Source of the DNA: Candidatus Obscuribacter phosphatis
GTDB lineage: Bacteria > Cyanobacteriota > Vampirovibrionia > Obscuribacterales > Obscuribacteraceae
Direction: 5' to 3'
Length of the DNA stretch: 64,000 nucleotides
NCBI GenBank assembly: GCA_001899315.1
Contig: MOYA01000003.1
Coordinates: forward strand, 148,369-212,368
A model generated the notes under the pieces. The model ran no database searches, was not told the origin of the DNA, and was given only the letters and a program-made list of their open reading frames with translations. Every line of letters starts with the position of its first letter. The stretch's first letter is position 1. Made by a program: the position numbers and the translations under genes. Shown here piece after piece: positions 10,188-38,330 of this stretch.

Positions 10188-11306
10188 TTAGTGCAGAGGC
10201 ACACCCCAGCGCTTATAAAGCCGCGCAGCCAGGTCGATCATATCGGTTTGCATAGATGCGATATAAGGAGCATAACAAGCAAACTTTTGACTCAAAACAT
10301 TTCTTAGATTATTGTTGCCGCAAGCAAGTGCTTCGCTCAAAGTTTCGAGAAAAGCATCGGCAAAAGCAGCATCGTCTTGGTAAAGAGCGCCGGTAAATCT
10401 GCTCTCAAATTGACTGCTCTCAAATTGACCAAGCACATTTTGACAGGTCACCGCATTCGCCACCATATCAGCTAGCCTCAGATAATCATTTTGAAAGCAC
10501 TGTCTGTCACTTTCATCGACAAAGGCCGTACCTAGACGCTCATAAATCACATAAGCCAAATTGGGCAAGACTGCCAAACAATGCTCTAAAAGGTCGAATA
10601 ACTCTTCTGGTACCGGGCAATCATGGGTATCACGGCGCAACTTATCTAAACCCGAACGAGAGAGGCGCGGCTCGACTCGGCCGCCAGCCATATGAATCTC
10701 GACCACTCGCTCTAATGGATAGGTAGCCAAAAGTTCAAGCGCATCGATACCGAAGTTGGTCGCCTGGCAATAAAGATTGTGCAAATCAAGCAGCAAGAAA
10801 GACTGCGGCTGGTCTTGCAAGAGCGCTTCAAGAAAAGCCCCCTGCAGTAAAACATCTTCTCTTGAAAAAGCGAAAGCTAAATTTTCTAGACCGACCCTGG
10901 TAGCTGCATGTTGCTGCAATCTAGCCAAGTTAGCGCGACCGCGTTCAACAAATGCCTGCGAAAATGGTACCGAAAGCGGTGCGTTATCTATATAGCGCCC
11001 AGCCTGCGTAAAACCAAAATGCTCCGAAAAGAGAGTAAACCGGTGGCTTTCGACACTGTCCGAAAGAGCCTGCAGCCACGGCGTTTGTCTGGCATTTTCA
11101 CTGAACAGCGAATAACTGACGCCATGTCCAAGCAAGGCGCCTCTCTCGCCGTAGTCGTTCAATAAGGCAAAGGCCCAACCGGGCATAGATTCCAGCCCGG
11201 TATCAAAACTCCATTCCATACACTGCACCAGTCCTTGCCTATAAAGGGGCAAGAAAGCCGCAAAGAAGTTGTCTTCCAGCATTAATGAAACGCCCAGTTT
11301 GACCAA
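10188..11306 (-). CDS. MNIO / DUF692-family multinuclear iron enzyme, orphan
   Basis: A TIM-barrel protein of the DUF692 family, now called MNIO (multinuclear non-heme iron-dependent oxidative enzymes). Characterised members such as MbnB and TglH modify peptide cysteines with a separate partner protein. Candidate metal ligands are in place: GHGVSYSLF (His61), SEHFGF (His96), GLENLAF (Glu141), LLDLHNLYC (Asp174, His176), EIHMAGG (His205), DTHDCPVP (Asp226, His228) and YERLG (Glu256). About 110 extra residues follow the barrel. I see no DUF2063/MbnC-like partner and no short precursor-peptide gene nearby. Instead it sits 33 bp downstream of homoserine kinase, so it may work in small-molecule metabolism or with a distant peptide. 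Confidence 0.8.
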   Translation of the reverse strand: MVKLGVSLMLEDNFFAAFLPLYRQGLVQCMEWSFDTGLESMPGWAFALLNDYGERGALLGHGVSYSLFSENARQTPWLQALSDSVESHRFTLFSEHFGFTQAGRYIDNAPLSVPFSQAFVERGRANLARLQQHAATRVGLENLAFAFSREDVLLQGAFLEALLQDQPQSFLLLDLHNLYCQATNFGIDALELLATYPLERVVEIHMAGGRVEPRLSRSGLDKLRRDTHDCPVPEELFDLLEHCLAVLPNLAYVIYERLGTAFVDESDRQCFQNDYLRLADMVANAVTCQNVLGQFESSQFESRFTGALYQDDAAFADAFLETLSEALACGNNNLRNVLSQKFACYAPYIASMQTDMIDLAARLYKRWGVPLH

Positions 11307-11339: not shown

Positions 11340-12305
11340 CTATAATTCCAATTCTTGAATGCCGTGATCATCGACTCTCAAATCAAGCAAATGACCAGGA
11401 TTTTTTTCACTTTCCATCCAAGCCTTGATCTTAGCCATGACGGCTTCTTTATTGCGCCTATGCACGACAGTGACCACAGAAGATCCGGCACCAGAAAGGA
11501 CACAACCTAGAACCGGGTCGTTGACTAACTCTCGCCGCAGGCGAGCCAGCTCGGGCACAAGCTGGGCGCGAAAAGGCTCATGCAATCTATCATCCATCGC
11601 TTCGCGCAGAGCCGACTCATCTGAGCGTGCCACTGCCGCCACCAACTGCGCCACTTTGTGTACGTTATAAAGCGCATCATCGAAACGAACCTGCTTAGGC
11701 AAAACAGTTCTTGTGGCAGTGGTATTGAGGGTGTAATTGGGTGTGTACACCAAGAGGCGCCAATCCTCGGGCCATTTCAGACGCTGAGTAATAATGCGCT
11801 TGCCGCTTGCCGCCGGCGAACAGACAACCAGACCGCCCAATAGACAGGCTGCTAAATTCTCGGGATGACCTTCCAACTCGCAGGCTTCGGCCAACAAGGC
11901 TGGCGCGGTGGGAATGCGATCTTTCAAAACATTAGCCGCCCAAAGAGCGCCGATAATGGCTGTAGAGGTCGAACCGAGACCCACGCCCAAGGGTATCTCA
12001 GAATCGACCATAATACGCACCCGGTCTAGCAGGTGGTGGTCTCTTTGCCAGAGCTTAGAAAGAATTGTATAGGTAAGATTGCCGCGGTCTTTTGCCAAAC
12101 TGGAGACTTCAATATCACCCTTGAAGGTAATCAGAGGAACTTCAGGATCATTTTCATCCAGCAAAAAAAAGGTCATTCGGCTGTATACATTCACCGCCAG
12201 CCCGAGGCAGTCAAGCCCGGGACCCAAATTGCTGGTGCTGCCAGGCAATTTTAGAGTTATCTTGCGGCCCTGTTTAATGAGCTCTTCGATTTGTATGAGT
12301 TCCAA
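11340..12305 (-). CDS. thrB: Homoserine kinase (GHMP family)
   Basis: Phosphorylates L-homoserine to O-phosphohomoserine with ATP in threonine synthesis. The three GHMP-kinase motifs are visible: GSTSNLGPGLDCLG near residue 22, the ATP-binding loop PLGVGLGSTSTA near residue 105, and LSGAGSSVV near residue 265. At 321 residues it has the family length. It is first in a likely two-gene operon with the MNIO gene and is divergent from the SDR gene, with 91 bp between them. No other threonine-pathway gene is adjacent. Other GHMP kinases are an alternative, but motif 1 fits ThrB best. Confidence 0.85.
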   Translation of the reverse strand: MELIQIEELIKQGRKITLKLPGSTSNLGPGLDCLGLAVNVYSRMTFFLLDENDPEVPLITFKGDIEVSSLAKDRGNLTYTILSKLWQRDHHLLDRVRIMVDSEIPLGVGLGSTSTAIIGALWAANVLKDRIPTAPALLAEACELEGHPENLAACLLGGLVVCSPAASGKRIITQRLKWPEDWRLLVYTPNYTLNTTATRTVLPKQVRFDDALYNVHKVAQLVAAVARSDESALREAMDDRLHEPFRAQLVPELARLRRELVNDPVLGCVLSGAGSSVVTVVHRRNKEAVMAKIKAWMESEKNPGHLLDLRVDDHGIQELEL

Positions 12306-12396: not shown

Positions 12397-13428
12397 ATGA
12401 GACATTTAGTTACCGGAGGCTCCGGGTTCCTTGGCAATTTGATCGCACAGCATCTCGTGGAGAGAGGCGAAGAAGTGCGTATATTGGACATTTGGGAAGA
12501 CCCGGATCGTCCCAAACAGGCCCAGTTTATACGCTGCGATGTTCTTGACAGAGAGAATGTAGCAAAAGCAGTCAAGGGGGTCAATGTTGTTCACCACACT
12601 GCCGCCCTCGTACCGGTAACCAAAGCTGGAGACATGTTCAGAAAAGTGAACGTGGAAGGTACCGGTATAGTGGCCGAGGAAGCAGCCAGAGCCGAAGTTG
12701 ATAGCTTCATCTATATGAGCTCAAGCGCCATCTATGGCATTACCAAGTCGCCGGTAGACGCCGCTGTCACCCCTCGACCAGCCGAAGAATATGGTCAAAG
12801 CAAACTGGATGGTGAACTGAAAGCAAAAAGCATTTCAGAAAAAACCGGCATGCCGCTAATTTCAATAAGGCCGCGTACCATCATTGATAAAGGTCGCCTG
12901 GGGATTTTCCAAGTATTATTCGACTGGATCAAAAACGACATCAATGTCTATACACTTGGCGACGGCAAAAATCGCATTCAGTTTTTGCATGCACAAGACT
13001 TGATCAACTGCTATCTACTTTTGAATGATCTGAAAAGACCCGGCTTTTACAATGTCGGAACCGACCGCTATGCCAGCTTGAATGAAAATCTAGGCAATCT
13101 AATCAAGCATGCCGGGTCCAAATCAAAAGTCAGACATCTGCCCAAAGATTTAGCCAAATCTTCCTTGCTTATGCTCGACAAGCTCAATCTCAGCCCGCTT
13201 GCGCCCTGGCACTATCTGAGCTACGGCGAAGACTTCTTTTTCGATGTCAATCATCTCAAAGAGCTGGGTTGGAAGCCGAAGTATTCAAATGACGAAATGC
13301 TCTGCGAAAGCTATGACAGCTTCACTGCCAACTATGAGCAATCGATGAAAGGCAAAGAAGGATCAGCCCACCGCAAACCCCTGCAGCAGAAAGTTCTCGG
13401 CTTACTCAAGGTCATTTCACGCTTCTAA
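12397..13428 (+). CDS. NAD-dependent epimerase/dehydratase (extended SDR)
   Basis: A 343-residue extended short-chain dehydrogenase. The dinucleotide loop is TGGSGFLG (residues 6-13), an acidic residue after strand 2 (ILDIWED) favours NAD, and the catalytic Tyr/Lys pair is YGQSK near residue 147 with SSSAIYG just before it. The frame is open further upstream, overlapping thrB, but the ATG at 12397 puts the Rossmann loop at the normal place and has AAAGG just upstream. A TATACT hexamer lies about 30 nt before it. The substrate is unknown; the sequence feel is that of 3-beta-hydroxysteroid dehydrogenase-like or sugar epimerases. It ends in a 4-nt convergent overlap with the kinase gene. Confidence 0.82.
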   Translation: MRHLVTGGSGFLGNLIAQHLVERGEEVRILDIWEDPDRPKQAQFIRCDVLDRENVAKAVKGVNVVHHTAALVPVTKAGDMFRKVNVEGTGIVAEEAARAEVDSFIYMSSSAIYGITKSPVDAAVTPRPAEEYGQSKLDGELKAKSISEKTGMPLISIRPRTIIDKGRLGIFQVLFDWIKNDINVYTLGDGKNRIQFLHAQDLINCYLLLNDLKRPGFYNVGTDRYASLNENLGNLIKHAGSKSKVRHLPKDLAKSSLLMLDKLNLSPLAPWHYLSYGEDFFFDVNHLKELGWKPKYSNDEMLCESYDSFTANYEQSMKGKEGSAHRKPLQQKVLGLLKVISRF

Positions 13429-27773: not shown

Positions 27774-27808
27774 TTGAGGTTACACTAGTTGACCGTTAGG
27801 AAATGAAA

Positions 27809-28381
27809 ATGCAAGAGATGGAAATCAATCACAAGCTATCAAACAAGACTAGTGGCAGAGAGCTGTTCATAAGTCTCTTTATCTGCACCTATCTCTTTTA
27901 TTTGATAGCCTGGCTCTCACCCGAAAACGAGACTCGCAAACGCATCATTGAGCCAATCAATACAGCCTGGTTATTCTTTGGTCTCGACCAAAACTGGAGA
28001 CTGTTTTCACCAGAAATCAAAGATATCAACTTTCATACCCTGGCTATTCTCACCTTTGAAGACGGCAGCAAGAAAATCTGGGAATTGCCGCGCATGAAAA
28101 GACTAGACTTCTGGCAACGCTTCAAAGACGAAAAATTCCGCAAGTGGAGCATAGATTCTCTGCCTTGGCCTGACTACAAAGAATTCCATCCCGACTTTGC
28201 AATCTATGTAGGCAAGAAGTTCTTCAATCCCACAAACAAACCTGTCTCACTCAGCCTGCAACTTTTCTGGACAGACATTCCAGACCCGGAAAAGCACTTT
28301 ACCAAAGTAGAGAATCTACCTGAACACACACGCATGAATAATGTTTTCTTCTATCGCTTCAAAGAAGGAGACCTGCAATGA
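27809..28381 (+). CDS. HTTM-partner membrane protein
   Basis: 190 residues. It has one N-terminal membrane helix (LFISLFICTYLFYLIAWL), then LDQNWRLFSPEI, the W-R-(M/L)-F-(S/A)-P motif often seen in small proteins beside HTTM genes, and a beta-rich soluble part. An ATG 6 nt upstream is possible, but AGGA is 7 nt before the ATG at 27809. It overlaps the HTTM gene by 4 nt, so the two are probably made together and interact. Confidence 0.65.
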   Translation: MQEMEINHKLSNKTSGRELFISLFICTYLFYLIAWLSPENETRKRIIEPINTAWLFFGLDQNWRLFSPEIKDINFHTLAILTFEDGSKKIWELPRMKRLDFWQRFKDEKFRKWSIDSLPWPDYKEFHPDFAIYVGKKFFNPTNKPVSLSLQLFWTDIPDPEKHFTKVENLPEHTRMNNVFFYRFKEGDLQ

Positions 28382-29370
28382 CCTTAGCTTCTATCTGGCA
28401 AGCATGGCGACGTTTCTGGTTTGAGCCGCAGGGCACCGAGACCATCTCGATCTACCGAATTCTTTATGGTCTTCTCGTCAGTCAGATCTTTCTCATTCAT
28501 CTAGCCGGAAGATTTGAAGAATGGTACGGTCCAGACTCGATGATCAGAATCAGCACAGTGATCAATCATTTCTGGCACAGAGAACCGCGTCTAGATTTAT
28601 TCTTGCTTTTTCCGCAGCAAGCGCAAAGCTATACCATAATTTATTTCTTGGCAGCGGCGCTCTCAATCATGCTCATTCTAGGCTTCAAAGGCAGACTGGC
28701 AGCCTTTCTAGTCTGGCTCACCCTGGTCTCGATGCACCACCACAATCCCTACAACATAAACGGCGGTGATGCTTTCCTCAGAGCTGTCGGCATCTTTCTA
28801 GCACTTTCTCCTTGCAGCGATCATTATTCGATAGACTCTCTCATCGCCAAGAGAAAGGGCATTTTGCCCATAGAAAAGAGCCCCTGGGCTCAGCGCATGA
28901 TTCAAGTTTCAATCGCCCTGGTTTATTATCAGACCTTTTGGTGCAAGATCTCAGGTCACCAGTGGCTAGACGGTACCGCGGTTTACTATGCCACCAGACT
29001 CGATGACATGCTGCGCTTCCCCTTACCTCTCGTCTCAGACAATATGACCGTGCTCTGGCTGCTCAATTGGTTTACTCTGATCATCGAATTTCTCGGCTGG
29101 AATGCAATTTTCTTGAAAGAATGCCGCTATGCGGTGGTCATCGGCTTAGTGTTTCTGCACCTCGGCATCGAGTATATGGTCAATCTGCCCGTCTTTGAAT
29201 GGGCCTTCATTTTTACTCTTTTCACATTTGTAGACGCCGAGCACACAAGAAAAGCAAGCCACTTTCTCAAATCCTGCTTGCTTGCTGTTTTCTTTCCAAA
29301 CAAAGGCAAAGACAAGTCCTCAAAATCAGACCTAGACTTGGGCTTAGGCGTAGGCGGTCAAGCAAGCTGA
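28378..29370 (+). CDS. HTTM-domain (gamma-carboxylase-like) membrane protein
   Basis: 330 residues with about six to eight membrane helices and the HTTM pattern: ISIYRILYGLLV near the start, the WYGPDSM loop, HHHNPYNINGGDAFLR and WLDGTAVYY. HTTM proteins are bacterial relatives of vitamin K-dependent gamma-carboxylase; most lack carboxylase activity and their role is unknown. The soluble lumenal domain of true carboxylases is absent here; the adjacent coupled gene may supply the soluble part. Confidence 0.78.
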   Translation: MTLASIWQAWRRFWFEPQGTETISIYRILYGLLVSQIFLIHLAGRFEEWYGPDSMIRISTVINHFWHREPRLDLFLLFPQQAQSYTIIYFLAAALSIMLILGFKGRLAAFLVWLTLVSMHHHNPYNINGGDAFLRAVGIFLALSPCSDHYSIDSLIAKRKGILPIEKSPWAQRMIQVSIALVYYQTFWCKISGHQWLDGTAVYYATRLDDMLRFPLPLVSDNMTVLWLLNWFTLIIEFLGWNAIFLKECRYAVVIGLVFLHLGIEYMVNLPVFEWAFIFTLFTFVDAEHTRKASHFLKSCLLAVFFPNKGKDKSSKSDLDLGLGVGGQAS

Positions 29371-31106: not shown

Positions 31107-32672
31107 GTGGCCTCGAACCTTACTAAGATTATTAAAAGTCGCGGCACCGTAGTCTTTTTAGGACTGGCGGTGAGCGCAGCCCTGCTTATCATGACAGCCC
31201 GGACAATTAGATGGAACGTTGTCTATGATGCCTTTGCCACAGCTGTCTGGCTGCCCTGGATTCCACTTGCTGTCGCCACATATACAGTCGGCATGTTGCT
31301 CAGAGGCCTGAGACTGCAAAAATTAGTGGAAAGCGAGGCCAACCTCACCGTCGCCACCGCCAGCAACATCATTGCCGTTGGTTATGCAGTCAACAATATC
31401 TTGCCGGCCCGACTGGGAGAGTTCGCCCGAGCCGGTATGTTGGCCGAACGCACCGGTCTGCCCTATGCCCTAGCTCTTACCGTCACCTTCTTAGAGAGAC
31501 TGCTTGACGGTCTGACGATTCTTACTCTTTTCGTTTTAGCAAGCTTTATCACCCCGACCCAAAGCTGGATGACCTCAGCTTCTCAGATTGCCGCCCTCAT
31601 TTTTGCCATGGTCCTGCCCTGTGTTCTTGTCCTAGCAATTTTCCCGCAGCTGTCGCTTTCTTTGGCTTCACAGCTGAGTCATCCTTTCGGCAGAAATTTA
31701 CACCATAAGGCTCTCGCCCTGACCACTCAGGTGACCCGCGGTTTCGGCTGCTTGCGCAGCGGGGCATCGGCGCTCTTGGTGCTGATGCTGAGCTTTCTCA
31801 TCTGGGGCATAGAAGGCTTGATGTTTGCCCTGGTTTTACCTTGCTTTCAAATTGTTTTCAGCCCGGTCAAGGCACTGGCGGTGATGGCATTCACCAATCT
31901 CGGCATTCTTGTCCCTTCCACCCCGGGCTATCTGGCTGTCTATCATAAATGCTGCGCCGAAGCCTTGCAGGCGGTGACCAGCAAACAAGGAGCCGGACTG
32001 CTCACCCCCTTCATTCCCAGTCAGTTGCTTGAGACAATAATGCCCTTTTCGACAACGGCGGTAGAAGCCGATACAGCGCTTTCTTACGCAGTAGTCGTGC
32101 ATCTGATTTTTTATGCCACCGTCACCATTTGGGGCGTTATTGCCATGGCCCGTTACGGTGTGGAACTGGGCACCACCGCCGCTCTTGCCTGGGAAGCAAA
32201 ACCTTTGCCCAGGCAAGATCTGGAAAAATTTGCCGATGTGGCTTTAATTACCTCGACCCCTCGCATCAAGAGCGAAACACTCTGCTTCCAACCCAGCCTC
32301 TTCTGGACAAAGCTGGCCGAAGCCATGATTATGCCGCCCGGAGAGATCTTCTTGAAAGAGGAAGACAAGCAAAAGCAAGCCTTGGAAGACTCGGCCCTCT
32401 TTCTTTGCCGGGAAGTATCTTCCTTGCCGAGAAAACTCTGCACCATGCTCAAAATAGGCATAATCGGCTTTCGCACGATTGTTGTCTTGACCAATTTCAA
32501 TGCCTTCGAAAATCTTTCTTTAGCCAAGAGACAAGCTATTGTCAAAGCCTGGTCTTTCGGCAAGATCGGCTTGACCCGCAAACTCTTCAAGCCGCTGCGC
32601 AGTATTGCTCTTTTAGCTTACTTCGAAGATGAAGGCGTGCAAAGTGCCCTGCAAGCGGAGCGGCAAGCATGA
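31107..32672 (+). CDS. UPF0104 / LPG-synthase-TM-like flippase-type membrane protein
   Basis: 521 residues, GTG start (GGAAG upstream). About eight membrane helices cover residues 15-350. The family signature NNILPARLGEFARAG sits near residue 95, with TFLERLLDG after it. This fold is shared with the flippase half of MprF and with AglD-like proteins; members are thought to move lipids or glycolipids across the membrane. A soluble tail of about 160 residues is unusual and unassigned. First gene of a four-gene coupled operon (next gene overlaps by 4 nt). Confidence 0.78.
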   Translation: MASNLTKIIKSRGTVVFLGLAVSAALLIMTARTIRWNVVYDAFATAVWLPWIPLAVATYTVGMLLRGLRLQKLVESEANLTVATASNIIAVGYAVNNILPARLGEFARAGMLAERTGLPYALALTVTFLERLLDGLTILTLFVLASFITPTQSWMTSASQIAALIFAMVLPCVLVLAIFPQLSLSLASQLSHPFGRNLHHKALALTTQVTRGFGCLRSGASALLVLMLSFLIWGIEGLMFALVLPCFQIVFSPVKALAVMAFTNLGILVPSTPGYLAVYHKCCAEALQAVTSKQGAGLLTPFIPSQLLETIMPFSTTAVEADTALSYAVVVHLIFYATVTIWGVIAMARYGVELGTTAALAWEAKPLPRQDLEKFADVALITSTPRIKSETLCFQPSLFWTKLAEAMIMPPGEIFLKEEDKQKQALEDSALFLCREVSSLPRKLCTMLKIGIIGFRTIVVLTNFNAFENLSLAKRQAIVKAWSFGKIGLTRKLFKPLRSIALLAYFEDEGVQSALQAERQA

Positions 32673-34180
32673 GCGGAACGCAAGAAAAACGACGCGAACG
32701 TGAACGTGAACGTGAACGTGAACAAGTCTTGATCATAGGTAGTGGCGCCGGCGGTGCCACTGTGGCCTATACATTAGCAGAGCATGGCTTTGAAGTGCTG
32801 GTTCTAGAAGAAGGACAAAGACATACGCTGGACAGCTACGGACAACCACCCACCAAAGCAATGAATCTGCTCTATAGAAACCGCGGCATGATGCCGATAA
32901 TGGGCAGTGTGCCCATCGGCTATGTCGAAGGACGTTGTCTGGGGGGCAGCACCGAGATCAATTCGGGTTTTTGGCACCGTCTGCCACCGGAATTTTTGCT
33001 GCGCTGGCAAGCCCGTTTTGGCTTGCACGATTTCAGCCTAGAGAGCCTAGAGGAACATTTTGACTGGGCCGAAGCCAAACTCTTGGTACAGGGTCGAAAT
33101 GGAGAATGGCCAAAATCGACCCAAGTCTTTCACCGCGGCATAGAAGCTATGCGCTGGTCGTCCCAGGAAGTGAAAAGAGCGGCCTCAGGCTGCGTCAATA
33201 CCAATGCCTGCGCCACCGGCTGCCCGAAAGGCGCCAAACAAGGGGTGAGCGTTTCACTGATTCCGCAAGCAGAAGCGAAAGGGGCGCGTTTTTTGACCGG
33301 CGCCAAAGTAAAACTAATTTTGAAGAGCGGCGGCAAAGCCACCGGCGTCCTCGCCGATGTGGTAGGTGCGGACGGCAGTGCCTCACTGGTGCGCATCGAT
33401 GCAGACCATATTTTTGTTTGTGCCGGTCCCACACAAACACCGGCGCTCTTGCGCAAAAGCGGCATCAGAGAGCATATCGGCGACACTTTCCAGATTCATC
33501 CGATGCTCAAAGTTACTGCTTTGTTCGACGAAGAAATCAATGCCCAAAATTCAGTCATGCCCCTTTTGCAAGTGAAAGAATTTTGGCCGGATATTTCAAT
33601 GGGTGGTTCTTTCTTTTCGGTCGGTCATCTCTCGGTAAACCTAGCCGACAATTGGCTGGAAACCTCAAAATCGATTAGACAATATCGCAATATGGCCAGC
33701 TACTATGTAGGCGTGCGCGGCACCGGCCATGGTACCGTTCGTCCATCTCTCAGCTCGGACGGCGAAGCCAAGTTAAAATATGAGCTTTCAGACGTCGATA
33801 TCAGACACTTGAGCCAAGGGCTGGCACGACTTTCCACCTTGCTTTTGAGAGCCGGAGCTAAAGAAGTCTATCCCTGCGTCTTCGGACTGCCCAAAATCAA
33901 TGCCGAATTGGAAGCAGTGAGGTGGCTGGATGAAAGCCTACCAAGGTCTGCCCTCAGTCTCACCACTGTACATGGCTTTTCCACTTGCCCCATCGGTGAG
34001 CGCCCCGAAAGATGCGCCGCCGACTCTTTCGGAAAAGTACACGGCTTCAAAAATCTCTACCTTGCCGATGCCAGTATGCTGCCTGACTCGCCGGGTATCA
34101 ACCCGCAAGGCACAATCATGGCAATAGCAAGACGCAATGCTCTCAACTTTGTAGAAAATCGCCAAGCAAAAGGAGAATGA
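32669..34180 (+). CDS. GMC-type FAD oxidoreductase (cholesterol-oxidase-like)
   Basis: 503 residues. FAD-binding loop VLIIGSGAGGATVAY near residue 20, the GMC signature GGSTEINSGFWHRLP near 92, and the C-terminal INPQGTIMAIARRNA that closes the FAD site. A cysteine-rich stretch (CVNTNACATGCPKGAK) near 175 resembles the loop of long-chain alcohol oxidases and glucose-methanol-choline enzymes acting on lipids. The N-terminus carries an RERERERE run from a 6-bp tandem repeat. Substrate unknown; neighbours suggest an alcohol on a membrane lipid or triterpenoid. Confidence 0.85.
   Translation: MSGTQEKRREREREREREQVLIIGSGAGGATVAYTLAEHGFEVLVLEEGQRHTLDSYGQPPTKAMNLLYRNRGMMPIMGSVPIGYVEGRCLGGSTEINSGFWHRLPPEFLLRWQARFGLHDFSLESLEEHFDWAEAKLLVQGRNGEWPKSTQVFHRGIEAMRWSSQEVKRAASGCVNTNACATGCPKGAKQGVSVSLIPQAEAKGARFLTGAKVKLILKSGGKATGVLADVVGADGSASLVRIDADHIFVCAGPTQTPALLRKSGIREHIGDTFQIHPMLKVTALFDEEINAQNSVMPLLQVKEFWPDISMGGSFFSVGHLSVNLADNWLETSKSIRQYRNMASYYVGVRGTGHGTVRPSLSSDGEAKLKYELSDVDIRHLSQGLARLSTLLLRAGAKEVYPCVFGLPKINAELEAVRWLDESLPRSALSLTTVHGFSTCPIGERPERCAADSFGKVHGFKNLYLADASMLPDSPGINPQGTIMAIARRNALNFVENRQAKGE
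32693..32722. repeat. CGTGAA hexanucleotide repeat in the GMC gene start
   Basis: Five units of CG(T/C)GAA just after the start codon give an Arg-Glu run ahead of the FAD-binding domain. In-frame copy changes would alter only this tail. Confidence 0.85.
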
Positions 34181-34182
34181 GA

Positions 34183-35259
34183 ATGAGCCTCGCTATCGTC
34201 ACAGGCACTCCAGGATGGCTCGGTAACAGGCTCTTAGAGACCCTACTTACCGGCATGCCGGAAGTGGCTGCCCTCAAAGAAGTGAAGAGCGAGAAAGTGC
34301 GCGCCCTCTGCCTACCCAATCTAATTGAAGACGGCAAACTAAAAGAACTGGTCAAAGAGGCTGCAGGCAGCCTGGAACTGGTAAAGGGAGATCTTGCCGC
34401 CAGTGACCCTCAGGGTCACAATCTCCACCAATTATTCAAAAATGCAGAAGGCGCAACCGTCTTTCATGTGGCCGGCATCATTCATCCTAGCCGCGGCGTC
34501 AAGGAGTTTTATGACGTCAATGTGGAAGGGACAAGAAGAATGCTCGATGAGGCAAAGAAACAAGGCGTCAAACGCTTCATCCATGTTTCCTCCAATTCAC
34601 CAATTGGGATAGCCAAAGCCGGCAGCACCGTCTTTGACGAGAATAGCCCGTACAACCCCTATATGAACTACGGCAAGAGCAAGAAATTAGCCGAAGATTT
34701 AGTCAACCAGGCCGGACGCGAAGGCAAGCTGGAAACAGTTATTATTCGACCACCGTGGTTCTATGGCATAGGTCAACCGGCCCGCCAAACTCTCTTTTTC
34801 ACCATGGTCAAAAACGGCAAAGCCCCCATAGTCGGCTCCGGCGAAAATCTTAGATCGATGGCTTATGTAGACAATATCTGCCAGGGTCTTTTGCTTTGCC
34901 AGAAAGTAAAGGAAGCAGCCGGTCGCACCTATTGGATCGCCGACCAGGAGCCCTATAAGATGAACTTTATTGTGGACACTATTGAAAAAGTGCTCAGCCA
35001 AGATTTCAACATCAAATGCAAAGGCACTAGAATGCACCTGCCCGATCTAGCTTCAGAGGTAGCCTTAGGCATAGATGCCACCTTGCAGGGCTTGGGTCTC
35101 TATCATCAAAAGTTCCATGTTTTATCTGAAATGAATAAAAATATTGCTTGCTCTGTCGCCTTGGCGGAAAAAGAGCTCGGCTATAAGCCAACCATCGCAC
35201 TGGAAGAAGGTATGCGCAGGAGTATAGATTGGGTTCTCAAGAACGGACAAAGCATTTAG
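34183..35259 (+). CDS. NAD-dependent epimerase/dehydratase, 3-beta-HSD-like
   Basis: 358 residues of extended SDR type. Nucleotide loop VTGTPGWLG near residue 5, the active-site YGKSK near residue 165 with HVSSNSPIG before it, and PYNPYMNYGKS typical of the family. AAAGGAG lies 7 nt before the ATG at 34183; an ATG two codons earlier overlaps the GMC stop. Together with the GMC oxidase it could oxidise and isomerise or reduce the same lipid alcohol. It is about 25-30% like the SDR at 12397 by eye, so not a recent duplicate. Confidence 0.82.
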   Translation: MSLAIVTGTPGWLGNRLLETLLTGMPEVAALKEVKSEKVRALCLPNLIEDGKLKELVKEAAGSLELVKGDLAASDPQGHNLHQLFKNAEGATVFHVAGIIHPSRGVKEFYDVNVEGTRRMLDEAKKQGVKRFIHVSSNSPIGIAKAGSTVFDENSPYNPYMNYGKSKKLAEDLVNQAGREGKLETVIIRPPWFYGIGQPARQTLFFTMVKNGKAPIVGSGENLRSMAYVDNICQGLLLCQKVKEAAGRTYWIADQEPYKMNFIVDTIEKVLSQDFNIKCKGTRMHLPDLASEVALGIDATLQGLGLYHQKFHVLSEMNKNIACSVALAEKELGYKPTIALEEGMRRSIDWVLKNGQSI

Positions 35260-36740
35260 GCTCCCCGTATTTGGTGGCTAGCTTGGTTCTGCTTTCGGCG
35301 GGACTTATCTTTTCTTATTTTCTCTATGGCAATTATGCCCTACAAAAAGAGATGGCCATCGAATACGAAGGCCCTTGCCTTTGGGCTGCCAGTCGCATCT
35401 TTCACGGGCAAAATCCTTATCCCTTAGAAAGTTTGAGCGAAAGCCCTTTTGCCGTCATCATCTATCCACCCCTCTATTTTCTCGCCACGGCACCCCTCAT
35501 GTTTTTTTCAGAGGGCTATAGACTGTCCAGGCTTTTCTCTCTTTTGACGGCGCTGGGCTCGGCTCTCTTTTACTATTTATTTTTGCGCCGACTGAAACTA
35601 TCAAAACTCAGCGCCATGACGAGCAGTGCTCTTTTTATGAGCTTTATGGCTGTCTGGCTCTGGGCGGCTAAGGCTCGGGTAGACGAACTATCACTTTGCC
35701 TCACCCTTATCTCGCTCTATTTCTTTGCCGGTTGGAAACGAAAGTCAAATCTTATTTTTAGCGCAGTCACACTTAGTTTAGCGACGATGACAAAGCAGCC
35801 CTCTGCCTTGTTTGCCCCCTCTTATTGTCTCTTTCTTTTGCTGCAAAAAAATTGGAAAGGACTAGCAATTATGGCTGGTACTTTCACCCTAAGTCTGGCA
35901 GCCCAAATTGGCATCTGCCAACTCGCCACCGCCGGCGGTTTCATCGCCCATATGCGCTTTGCCTCTCATATGCCTTTTCAATGGCAATATTTAGTCGATC
36001 GCCTCACTCTAATGCTCGGTGATCTTCCCAAGTTTGCCATGGCGTTCTTTTCTTTGTCTTTCTTGGCTCCGCTTATAAGCAAGCAAGACAAAGAAAAGAG
36101 CACCAGCTTAGTCCTTGCCGCCCTGCTTCTCATCACTAGCCTGCCAGTTACTCTCTACACCGCCGGCACCGAATATTCCAATGTCAATCATTTTCTTATT
36201 GCCCTCATTCCCCTGCCGCTCTTCATCGCCCTGGCACTCGATTGGTCTATAAAAAGCCCTAGCTTAGGCGGCAAACTGTACAAAATAGCAACAGCCTGCA
36301 CCAATGTTATTTCAGCCCTGATTTTGTCTTTTCTGGCTTACTCGCAGTTCAACCCCGCCAAGCTCTCAGACAAGCCACACCTTGACAAACCAATCAGTCT
36401 TGAAACCTTTCGCGGGCTAGTAACCGGTAAAAGCATTCTTGCCGAAGACGGCGGCTACGGGGTACTTTTTGGCGCCGAGAGCGAGCCGGTAGACATAACC
36501 ACCTTTATTCAAGTGCTCGGCAGAGACGGCAAGCAAGCCGAGCAAATGACCGAAAAGCTCAACCATTGCCAGTATGCCGCAGTAGTCATGAACCACAAAG
36601 AGCTGGACGGTACAAGAAACGCCATGCAATGGAGCGCCAAACTGAAAGCCGCCCTGCAGGAAAATTACCGCTTCGCCGGGCAAATTAACGGCAACGGGGA
36701 ATGCCAGGACGTGTTCTTGCCGGCCCGGTCCATGCGATAA
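35229..36740 (+). CDS. GT-C (ArnT/PMT-like) membrane glycosyltransferase
   Basis: 503 residues, about ten membrane helices. After the first helix, EMAIEYEGPCLWAASRIFHG gives the acidic residue expected in the first external loop of GT-C enzymes. YPPLYFLATAPL and WLWAAKARVDELSL are also in keeping with the DUF2029/GT39 type. The soluble tail (from about 395) is external. The TTG start overlaps the SDR gene by 31 nt and has no strong ribosome-binding site; a GTG at 35273 is an alternative. Such enzymes move sugars from polyprenyl carriers onto lipids or proteins. Last gene of the operon. Confidence 0.7.
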   Translation: MGSQERTKHLGSPYLVASLVLLSAGLIFSYFLYGNYALQKEMAIEYEGPCLWAASRIFHGQNPYPLESLSESPFAVIIYPPLYFLATAPLMFFSEGYRLSRLFSLLTALGSALFYYLFLRRLKLSKLSAMTSSALFMSFMAVWLWAAKARVDELSLCLTLISLYFFAGWKRKSNLIFSAVTLSLATMTKQPSALFAPSYCLFLLLQKNWKGLAIMAGTFTLSLAAQIGICQLATAGGFIAHMRFASHMPFQWQYLVDRLTLMLGDLPKFAMAFFSLSFLAPLISKQDKEKSTSLVLAALLLITSLPVTLYTAGTEYSNVNHFLIALIPLPLFIALALDWSIKSPSLGGKLYKIATACTNVISALILSFLAYSQFNPAKLSDKPHLDKPISLETFRGLVTGKSILAEDGGYGVLFGAESEPVDITTFIQVLGRDGKQAEQMTEKLNHCQYAAVVMNHKELDGTRNAMQWSAKLKAALQENYRFAGQINGNGECQDVFLPARSMR

Positions 36741-36770: not shown

Positions 36771-38330
36771 GTGTCTGAAGCCAAGGCAACAAAACAAACA
36801 GGAAAGGAACGCTTAAACGAGCTTTCCGGCTTTGGCCGCTGGAAAGAACTCTTTCCGCCCCTCGAAAACGAAGAAACCGCCCTGGCCTCTTTGCGTGAAG
36901 ACCTAGCCGAGGTGCCGGTACTTGGCACCGACGGCAAAGTGACAAACACTTATGCCAAAATCGAAGCAGAAGACTTAAGCCGGGCTGACAAAGATTTGAT
37001 CTGGCATTGCCTCGCCCTGGTGCGCGAAGCTTATTTGAAGTTGGAAGATGCCGATTGCCAGGCCGGTGGCGGTGGTTACCAATGGAATATGAATTGGAAG
37101 CACACCCGCGGCGAACTGGACCAGGTTTTGGAAGCTTGTCGTATCTTGGAGCTGAGTCCGCAAGAAGCGCGAGACGCCATGATCGCCTCAATCTTCTCGG
37201 ATGCGGTAAAGAACCGCGGCAATTTCATTGTTCATAATGTGCATGGCGCCCAAGCCGCCGCCCAGGTGCTTTCTTATTTCTTCGACCCCGACAATCCGGA
37301 AGAAATAAAGATAGTGGAAAGGATTGTTCTAGCTGTAAAGCAGCACCAAATAGCGCCGCCTGAATTTATGGCCCGCACCGTAGCCGTGCTGCTTTGCCGC
37401 AAGTTTGATCTGGAGCCCTTTGATCGCCTGATTGCCCGCGGCAATACCATAGAACAGGCAAAAAATAAGCGCAATAGACGCGTAATTTCAATCTATAGCA
37501 AAATCAGACTGCCCTACCAGAAAGAGCATCTCAGCGATGATCTGCTCACTATCAAATTCACCGAAGAAGAAAGAGAGATGCTCTCGGCCATCGAAATAGA
37601 AGACTGGTATGTGCCGCATCCAGATGTACGCGACTCGGTTATTGCCCACGCCCTCATCGCCGGCGATCATTCGATTAATTACAATAATCCAGATGGCTTT
37701 GCCAAAATAGCTTTGATCAGAGGTCCATCTACCGAAGCTTATTTCGAAGACCCGACCATATATGATTCGCTCGAATCGGCTATGGCAAGCTTTAGCGACA
37801 GCTACAAGATTTTACTGCCCGAAGTACGCACCTTAGCCCTGAACGGCATCCGTCGCACTCACCTGGCAGTGACGCGGGTTTTGCGCATCATGACCGAGCT
37901 TTTTGCCAATATTACAGTCGGACCAAGAGATAACAAGACCGAGATCAACGGCGAAGAAATGGTCAGACAGGCGATGGACCGAGCCAAAATGAAAAATCCG
38001 GACATCTTTGAAAGAGACGCCGGTTACAGTTCGGAAGAAGGACACCGAATATTAGAAAAGGCAGTTGAAAAGGTAGGACAAATTCTTGCCGACTGGCAAG
38101 AAGAATATGGCGCTATTCCGTTCTGTGAAAGAGAGCCCAGCCAATCGGAGCCGGGTCCGGGGCGCTTACCTTTCTGGAATACGCCTTTGCGCTATCCTCT
38201 GCGCGATCAAAAGGGCGAGCTGCTTATATCCAGCCTTACCGAATTAGAACAGAGGCAGTTTGCCTTTGCTCTTAGAATCAGGGAAATAGCCGTAGAATTA
38301 TTGCGTGCCGAACAGTGGTTTTTCTGCTAA
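36771..38330 (+). CDS. Hypothetical protein with HD-like helical core
   Basis: 519 residues, GTG start, no signal or membrane span. Between residues 135 and 205 it has AMIASIFSDAVKNRG, IVHNVHGAQAAAQVL and VLAVKQHQI. That is the spacing of an HD phosphohydrolase, but the HD doublet reads SD, so metal binding is doubtful. The rest is helical and charged (a second acidic half with TVGPRDNKTEINGEEM). I cannot assign a function. It begins 30 bp after the glycosyltransferase gene and may share its transcript. Confidence 0.55.
   Translation: MSEAKATKQTGKERLNELSGFGRWKELFPPLENEETALASLREDLAEVPVLGTDGKVTNTYAKIEAEDLSRADKDLIWHCLALVREAYLKLEDADCQAGGGGYQWNMNWKHTRGELDQVLEACRILELSPQEARDAMIASIFSDAVKNRGNFIVHNVHGAQAAAQVLSYFFDPDNPEEIKIVERIVLAVKQHQIAPPEFMARTVAVLLCRKFDLEPFDRLIARGNTIEQAKNKRNRRVISIYSKIRLPYQKEHLSDDLLTIKFTEEEREMLSAIEIEDWYVPHPDVRDSVIAHALIAGDHSINYNNPDGFAKIALIRGPSTEAYFEDPTIYDSLESAMASFSDSYKILLPEVRTLALNGIRRTHLAVTRVLRIMTELFANITVGPRDNKTEINGEEMVRQAMDRAKMKNPDIFERDAGYSSEEGHRILEKAVEKVGQILADWQEEYGAIPFCEREPSQSEPGPGRLPFWNTPLRYPLRDQKGELLISSLTELEQRQFAFALRIREIAVELLRAEQWFFC

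Follow-up and report, generated by a model that had tools for sequence, protein, structure and literature searches.

The window analyzed here is a 64,000-nt stretch on contig C3 of the genome under study (G000), from a member of the Obscuribacterales (Melainabacteria), which lie on the non-photosynthetic side of Cyanobacteriota. All four ORFs between positions 31107 and 36740 were confirmed and are co-directional. The features considered in this work are as follows:

31107-32672, + strand: UPF0104/LPG_synthase_TM flippase-like protein, 521 aa (Pfam/NCBIfam, predicted structure)
32298-32669, + strand: C-terminal helical domain of the flippase, ~120 residues, probable partner subunit of the GMC protein (blastp, alignment A4)
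32669-34180, + strand: GMC family flavoprotein, 503 aa (Pfam, motifs, predicted structure)
34177-35259, + strand: SDR1, an extended SDR, 360 aa (Pfam, motifs)
35229-36740, + strand: GT-C membrane glycosyltransferase-like protein (PMT_2 type), at most 503 aa, start uncertain
36771-38330, + strand: conserved protein of no recognised family, 519 aa, in most cases the next gene after the module
12400-13428, + strand: SDR2, an extended SDR, 342 aa, 45% identical to the SDR2 of Myxococcota locus L043

The flippase/GMC and GMC/SDR1 junctions are both 4-base ATGA stop/start overlaps. The 31-base overlap between SDR1 and the GT-C gene requires that a TTG at 35229 be used as the start codon, and in-frame TTG/GTG codons at 35271 and 35274, just past the SDR1 stop, are equally possible starts. 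The beginning of the GMC gene (32669-32740) encodes an Arg-Glu repeat, RERERERERE; L029, a relative with 97-98% identity, lacks it, and we read it as a short expansion of a repeat at a coupled start.

To place the operon among other genomes, we searched for the GMC protein in 84,980 species genomes and obtained 21 loci. The flippase, GMC and SDR1 genes follow one another in this order in the window, at L029-L041 and at L050, 15 Obscuribacteraceae loci in all, with the L035 flippase broken by a contig end. Two Myxococcota MAGs (L043 and L044) also carry them in order, and the ~60% identity of their GMC and SDR1 proteins suggests that these copies were acquired by horizontal transfer. A further genome, G077, has the flippase and GMC genes and lacks SDR1. 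The recurrence of this order in other genera, often with gene ends that overlap or nearly touch, argues against chance, and we consider the operon and its conservation to be solid. The coupling of the genes proposed in a sequence-only reading of this DNA is thus borne out, as is the conservation of gene order in relatives that it had set as its own test. The four-gene set that it described holds for flippase, GMC and SDR1, while the GT-C gene proved to be a genus-specific addition and a second SDR, non-adjacent here, belongs to the set. By neighborhood comparison and sequence search, the GT-C gene is present only in the three genomes of this genus; its PMT_2 score of 25.6 bits is just under the cut-off of 26.1. 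Better kept as a neighbor is the gene at 36771-38330, which follows the module in most Obscuribacteraceae and whose product is 53-97% identical in 9 relatives and has neither a relative in the PDB nor a Pfam match above cut-off.

SDR2 is part of the conserved set even though, in the window, ~18 kb separate it from the flippase gene downstream. In several other Obscuribacteraceae it likewise lies upstream of the flippase, at a distance of ~5 kb; it directly follows SDR1 in the Myxococcota genomes, L046 and L048, and is one gene away from it in Brasilonema. The GMC and SDR1 proteins form a single polypeptide in L050 (865 aa) and in L046 (a 992-aa ORF), which represent two lineages; such repeated fusion is strong evidence that they share a reaction sequence. 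At L048 (4949-6012), SDR1 is divided between two ORFs of 246 and 108 aa whose ends overlap, which may be a frameshift, a sequencing error or a real split.

The flippase matches LPG_synthase_TM/UPF0104 with 115.8 bits (Pfam cut-off 33.4) and TIGR00374 with 47.1 bits (cut-off 43.2), and retains invariant residues across an alignment of 16 homologues. Its predicted model comprises an MprF-type membrane domain (residues ~35-364) and a separate helical domain (~398-520). The six MprF chains, all among the matches listed, gave Z-scores of 17.5-18.6 against 6.0 for the next best, with the best superposition covering 274 residues at 4.0 Å (Z 18.6). The protein thus shares the fold of the MprF/UPF0104 family over ~270 residues but differs in having no aminoacyl-PG synthase domain and a different C-terminal domain.

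In L046, L048 and Brasilonema (L049), blastp and alignment revealed homologues of this helical domain that are encoded on their own by small genes immediately ahead of GMC. Because it is a separate gene just 5′ of GMC in three distant genomes, the domain is probably a GMC partner subunit, and we regard the evidence for the partner domain and its fusion as strong. By analogy with two-part GMC enzymes, the simplest reading is that fusion of the helical partner to the flippase would anchor the oxidase at the membrane. The large subunits of fructose dehydrogenase and Burkholderia FAD-glucose dehydrogenase likewise work with a small helical partner; however, the partner described here has no significant Gluconate_2-dh3 or PDB match and is fused to a flippase. 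The small protein of L046 scored 15.1 bits against Gluconate_2-dh3 (PF13618), below the cut-off of 23.4, and a profile of the partner domain retrieved no PDB relative and no recognised family. A relationship to the N-terminal domain of plant long-chain alcohol oxidases was considered and found no sequence support in the PDB, spruce PaAox1 included.

The flavoprotein itself is a GMC family member by Pfam, not a DprE1 homologue (GMC_oxred_N 126.2 bits, cut-off 23; GMC_oxred_C 66.5 bits, cut-off 24.6). It carries the FAD motif GSGAGG (GxGxxG type), and His435 and Asn478 are invariant in 16 homologues. Its model has a GMC fold (mean pLDDT 78); the best Foldseek E-values are to the large subunits of fructose dehydrogenase and FAD-glucose dehydrogenase, while VIA-align Z-scores gave ties that include choline, cholesterol and alcohol oxidases. 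With such ties among fold neighbors, structure alone does not choose the substrate. SDR1 matches Epimerase/3Beta_HSD with ~100 bits. Its TGxxGxxG motif (T9, G10, G13, G16), catalytic Ser (S139) and YxxxK motif (Y165, K169) are invariant in 14 homologues, as is the Ser138/139 pair together with Tyr165-x3-Lys169. Since the FAD motif, His435/Asn478 and Ser139/Tyr165/Lys169 are kept, both GMC and SDR1 are probably active. SDR2 likewise has the extended-SDR motifs, with a nearly invariant Tyr (alignment A6).

The best indication of a substrate comes from Brasilonema sp. UFV-L1, where L049 encodes on one strand a UbiA protein, a HAD phosphatase, a GT-C-like membrane protein (1076 aa), the small subunit, GMC, SDR1, a DUF218-like protein, SDR2 and an SMR protein. 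The UbiA protein matches the NCBIfam model for decaprenyl-phosphate phosphoribosyltransferase with 251.7 bits (cut-off 207) and the phosphatase scores 163.5 bits (cut-off 89.1). The SMR gene starts 1 base after SDR2; its product most resembles the ArnE flippase subunit and is only ~30% identical to the SMRs of its relatives. Kelly et al. (2024; PMC11127046) demonstrated experimentally that glycans receive pentofuranoses through a UbiA-type polyprenyl-phosphoribose synthase, a phosphatase, a flippase and a GT-C enzyme, and that one SDR, as the auxiliary epimerase, determines Xylf; for Araf systems they point to accompanying homologues of DprE1/E2. By analogy with these systems, the Brasilonema module appears placed where their auxiliary pentose enzyme would be. 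Among 18 related Nostocaceae loci without the module, 13 carry UbiA-HAD-SMR, many of them with a GT-C-like gene close by, and one relative (L263) has UbiA-DprE1-DprE2 (57%/63% identity) at the module's position.

This direct cluster link to a pentose cassette is seen in one genome. In G000, the flippase and GT-C genes lie together in the window and the synthase is on another contig (C1:1996392-1997333). We assessed how often the synthase and the module occur together. The synthase was over cut-off in all 16 family genomes with the module; within the family this is hardly informative, as a match is found in 44 of 50 genomes, with or without the module, and in Obscuribacteraceae the two are unlinked. 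The co-occurrence is more telling outside the family, where all six sampled module genomes have the synthase over cut-off, since a close homologue is found in only 17 of 99 Nostocaceae (Brasilonema plus 16 of 98 others sampled). This difference gives a rough Fisher p-value of ~2e-4, with five lineages taken as independent and Nostocaceae as the background. The conserved neighborhood of the synthase was set aside as evidence, as it reflects kinship and the non-module genome G007 has the same one; its CobU-, deformylase- and FabF-like members we take, by eye, to be housekeeping genes.

We also examined the distribution of DprE1. PF04030 proved a misleading marker, as it also matches other VAO-type oxidases, and we used instead a DprE1-specific profile checked against the PDB, which matches M. 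tuberculosis DprE1 with an E-value of ~1e-76. Canonical DprE1 is found in 0 of 16 module genomes of the family versus 10 of 34 non-module ones (Fisher p = 0.02, phylogeny ignored), and directly follows the synthase in G028, G065 and G016. However, a clean exchange of DprE1 for the module is argued against by a distant DprE1-like paralogue (124-203 bits) in 15 of the 16 module genomes and by G076, in which the module and a true DprE1 are present together. The profile matched only distant paralogues in G000, away from the module (best 177.6 bits). One locus there (L216, contig C1, 9586-16412), near chemotaxis-like genes, encodes a DprE1-like paralogue, a GT2-like protein, a classical SDR and two large membrane proteins, and may be a second locus for a lipid-linked sugar in this genome.

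Considering these observations together, we propose that the products of the operon form a redox module, anchored at the membrane, which modifies a polyprenyl-phosphate pentose, most simply by epimerization, and couples this to its flipping and use, a reading that we judge to have about an even chance of being correct. Polyprenyl-pentose is the best-supported substrate, chiefly through one cluster and co-occurrence; we infer the substrate, the position oxidized, the epimerization, the direction of flipping and the acceptor. According to this model, the unlinked UbiA phosphoribosyltransferase would make polyprenyl-phosphoribose and a phosphatase would strip its 5′-phosphate. The GMC flavoprotein, held at the membrane through the helical domain of the flippase, would then oxidize a ring hydroxyl, and SDR1, possibly with SDR2, would reduce the ketone from the other face. 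By analogy, oxidation by GMC followed by reduction by an SDR would follow the logic of DprE1/DprE2 and give an epimer. The UPF0104 domain would flip the product, which in this genus the GT-C enzyme (35229-36740) may transfer to a surface glycan.

Other explanations differ in the nature of the substrate. The GMC protein might instead be a fatty- or polyprenyl-alcohol oxidase whose product is reduced or reworked by the SDRs to give an unusual membrane lipid moved by the UPF0104 protein. UPF0104 proteins such as MprF move lipids, the fold neighbors of GMC include alcohol and cholesterol oxidases, and the best NCBIfam model for SDR1 is OleD, a 2-alkyl-3-oxoalkanoate reductase. The OleD match, however, is 90.7 bits against an equivalog cut-off of 580, so SDR1 is not OleD; thiolase, acyl-CoA ligase and acyl reductase genes were not seen in the annotated neighborhoods, and the sole linked pathway genes seen are those for polyprenyl-linked pentose. 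We therefore consider alcohol oxidation unlikely. The sequence-only reading had also offered a triterpenoid, and oxidation, reworking and glycosylation of a triterpenoid or hopanoid would be in keeping with the UPF0104 protein and with the 3Beta_HSD (97.5 bits) and HpnA-like (67.7 bits) scores of SDR1. Yet SDR1 is far below the cut-offs of the HpnA (367.65 bits) and SdmB models, and squalene-hopene cyclase was over cut-off in none of 50 family genomes, our own included. The triterpenoid claim is thus unsupported; we rejected this substrate, and regard it as very improbable. The broader suggestion of a membrane lipid is likely, and its better-supported form, given the Brasilonema cluster, is a polyprenyl-phosphate-linked sugar.

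Whether that sugar is a pentose is a separate matter, as the module may act on another lipid-linked or nucleotide sugar, such as a hexose or an amino sugar, with arabinose made by the DprE1-like paralogue or not at all. The G000 paralogue does adjoin genes for GT2 and for large membrane proteins; a synthase without DprE1 is found in many non-module genomes, so that ribose alone may be the donor there; and the best model for SDR2 is the HpnA 'sugar epimerase', below cut-off. This alternative nevertheless leaves unexplained the position of the module between the phosphatase/GT-C and flippase genes of the Brasilonema pentose cassette, as well as the synthase in every module genome, and we consider it improbable, to a similar degree as alcohol oxidation.

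If the polyprenyl-pentose reading is correct, the module resembles DprE1/DprE2 in pairing an FAD oxidase with an NAD(P) SDR next to a UbiA synthase of the same kind, in a pathway for polyprenyl-linked sugars. It differs in using a GMC protein and extended SDRs, where DprE1 belongs to the VAO/ALO-type flavoenzymes and DprE2 to the short classical SDRs. Brasilonema has the UbiA synthase, HAD phosphatase, flippase, GT-C and auxiliary redox/epimerase enzymes of the three-component pentofuranose systems, but its auxiliary enzymes are a GMC flavoprotein and two extended SDRs. In Obscuribacteraceae and Myxococcota, moreover, the flippase, which carries the GMC partner domain as a fusion, is of the UPF0104 rather than the MATE or SMR type, and the synthase is unlinked. 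We provisionally file the module as a variant of these systems, outside the DprE1/E2 family. A more far-reaching idea, which we put forward only tentatively and think less probable than the general model, is that it constitutes a third, independently evolved route from polyprenyl-phosphoryl-ribose to another pentofuranose, in which a two-part GMC enzyme and extended SDRs replace DprE1/DprE2 and are fused to the exporting flippase. In such a route the two SDRs could even invert two positions and so give lyxofuranose, a sugar that is missing from solved carbohydrate structures according to Kelly et al. (2024). Should the general model hold, DprE1/DprE2, a main tuberculosis drug target, would have a counterpart that is not homologous to it, and lipid-linked pentose chemistry would have been invented more than once. 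The Obscuribacteraceae, here metagenome-assembled genomes, would gain a predicted, measurable surface sugar, and fusion of the redox-partner domain to the flippase would tie the synthesis of a lipid-linked sugar physically and directly to its export. In the literature searched, which left subscription papers and preprints outside its scope, we found no described pathway with such a gene set, as the sequence-only reading had stated, no paper tying a GMC enzyme to a polyprenyl-pentose pathway, and nothing relevant on GMC together with DprE1, a flippase or a long-chain alcohol oxidase.

Several additional loci were noted during these comparisons. The synthase cassette of cyanobacterium G176 is followed by a GMC gene that is only distantly related (~22%) and was left uncounted. 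At L256 (11594-17632), a Nostocaceae UbiA-HAD-SMR-GT-C-like (1090 aa) arrangement precedes genes for a 214-aa protein, whose N-terminus is signal-like, and for a distant GMC (~22% identity); here a GMC enzyme may have been recruited to the polyprenyl-pentose pathway a second time. The large proteins linked to UbiA-HAD (L049 4151-7381, L252 11162-14416 and L256 11594-14866) consist of a GT-C-like membrane half joined to a C-terminal half of weak similarity to glucoamylase (GH15), with no Pfam match over cut-off. A relationship of the window's GT-C to that of synthase cassette L267 was dropped (blastp E-value 0.012, nothing by phmmer). Elsewhere in the window, 10188-11306 (- strand) encodes a RiPP-modifying enzyme of the MbnB/TglH/ChrH family (PF05114, 116 bits, cut-off 25) beside a GHMP kinase gene (11340-12305, - strand), a possible RiPP locus. 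At 27803-29370 (+ strand), the gene for a 192-aa protein with no Pfam match overlaps by 4 bases with the next gene, which encodes an HTTM-domain (SdpB-like) membrane protein, and this pair is also kept in L029.
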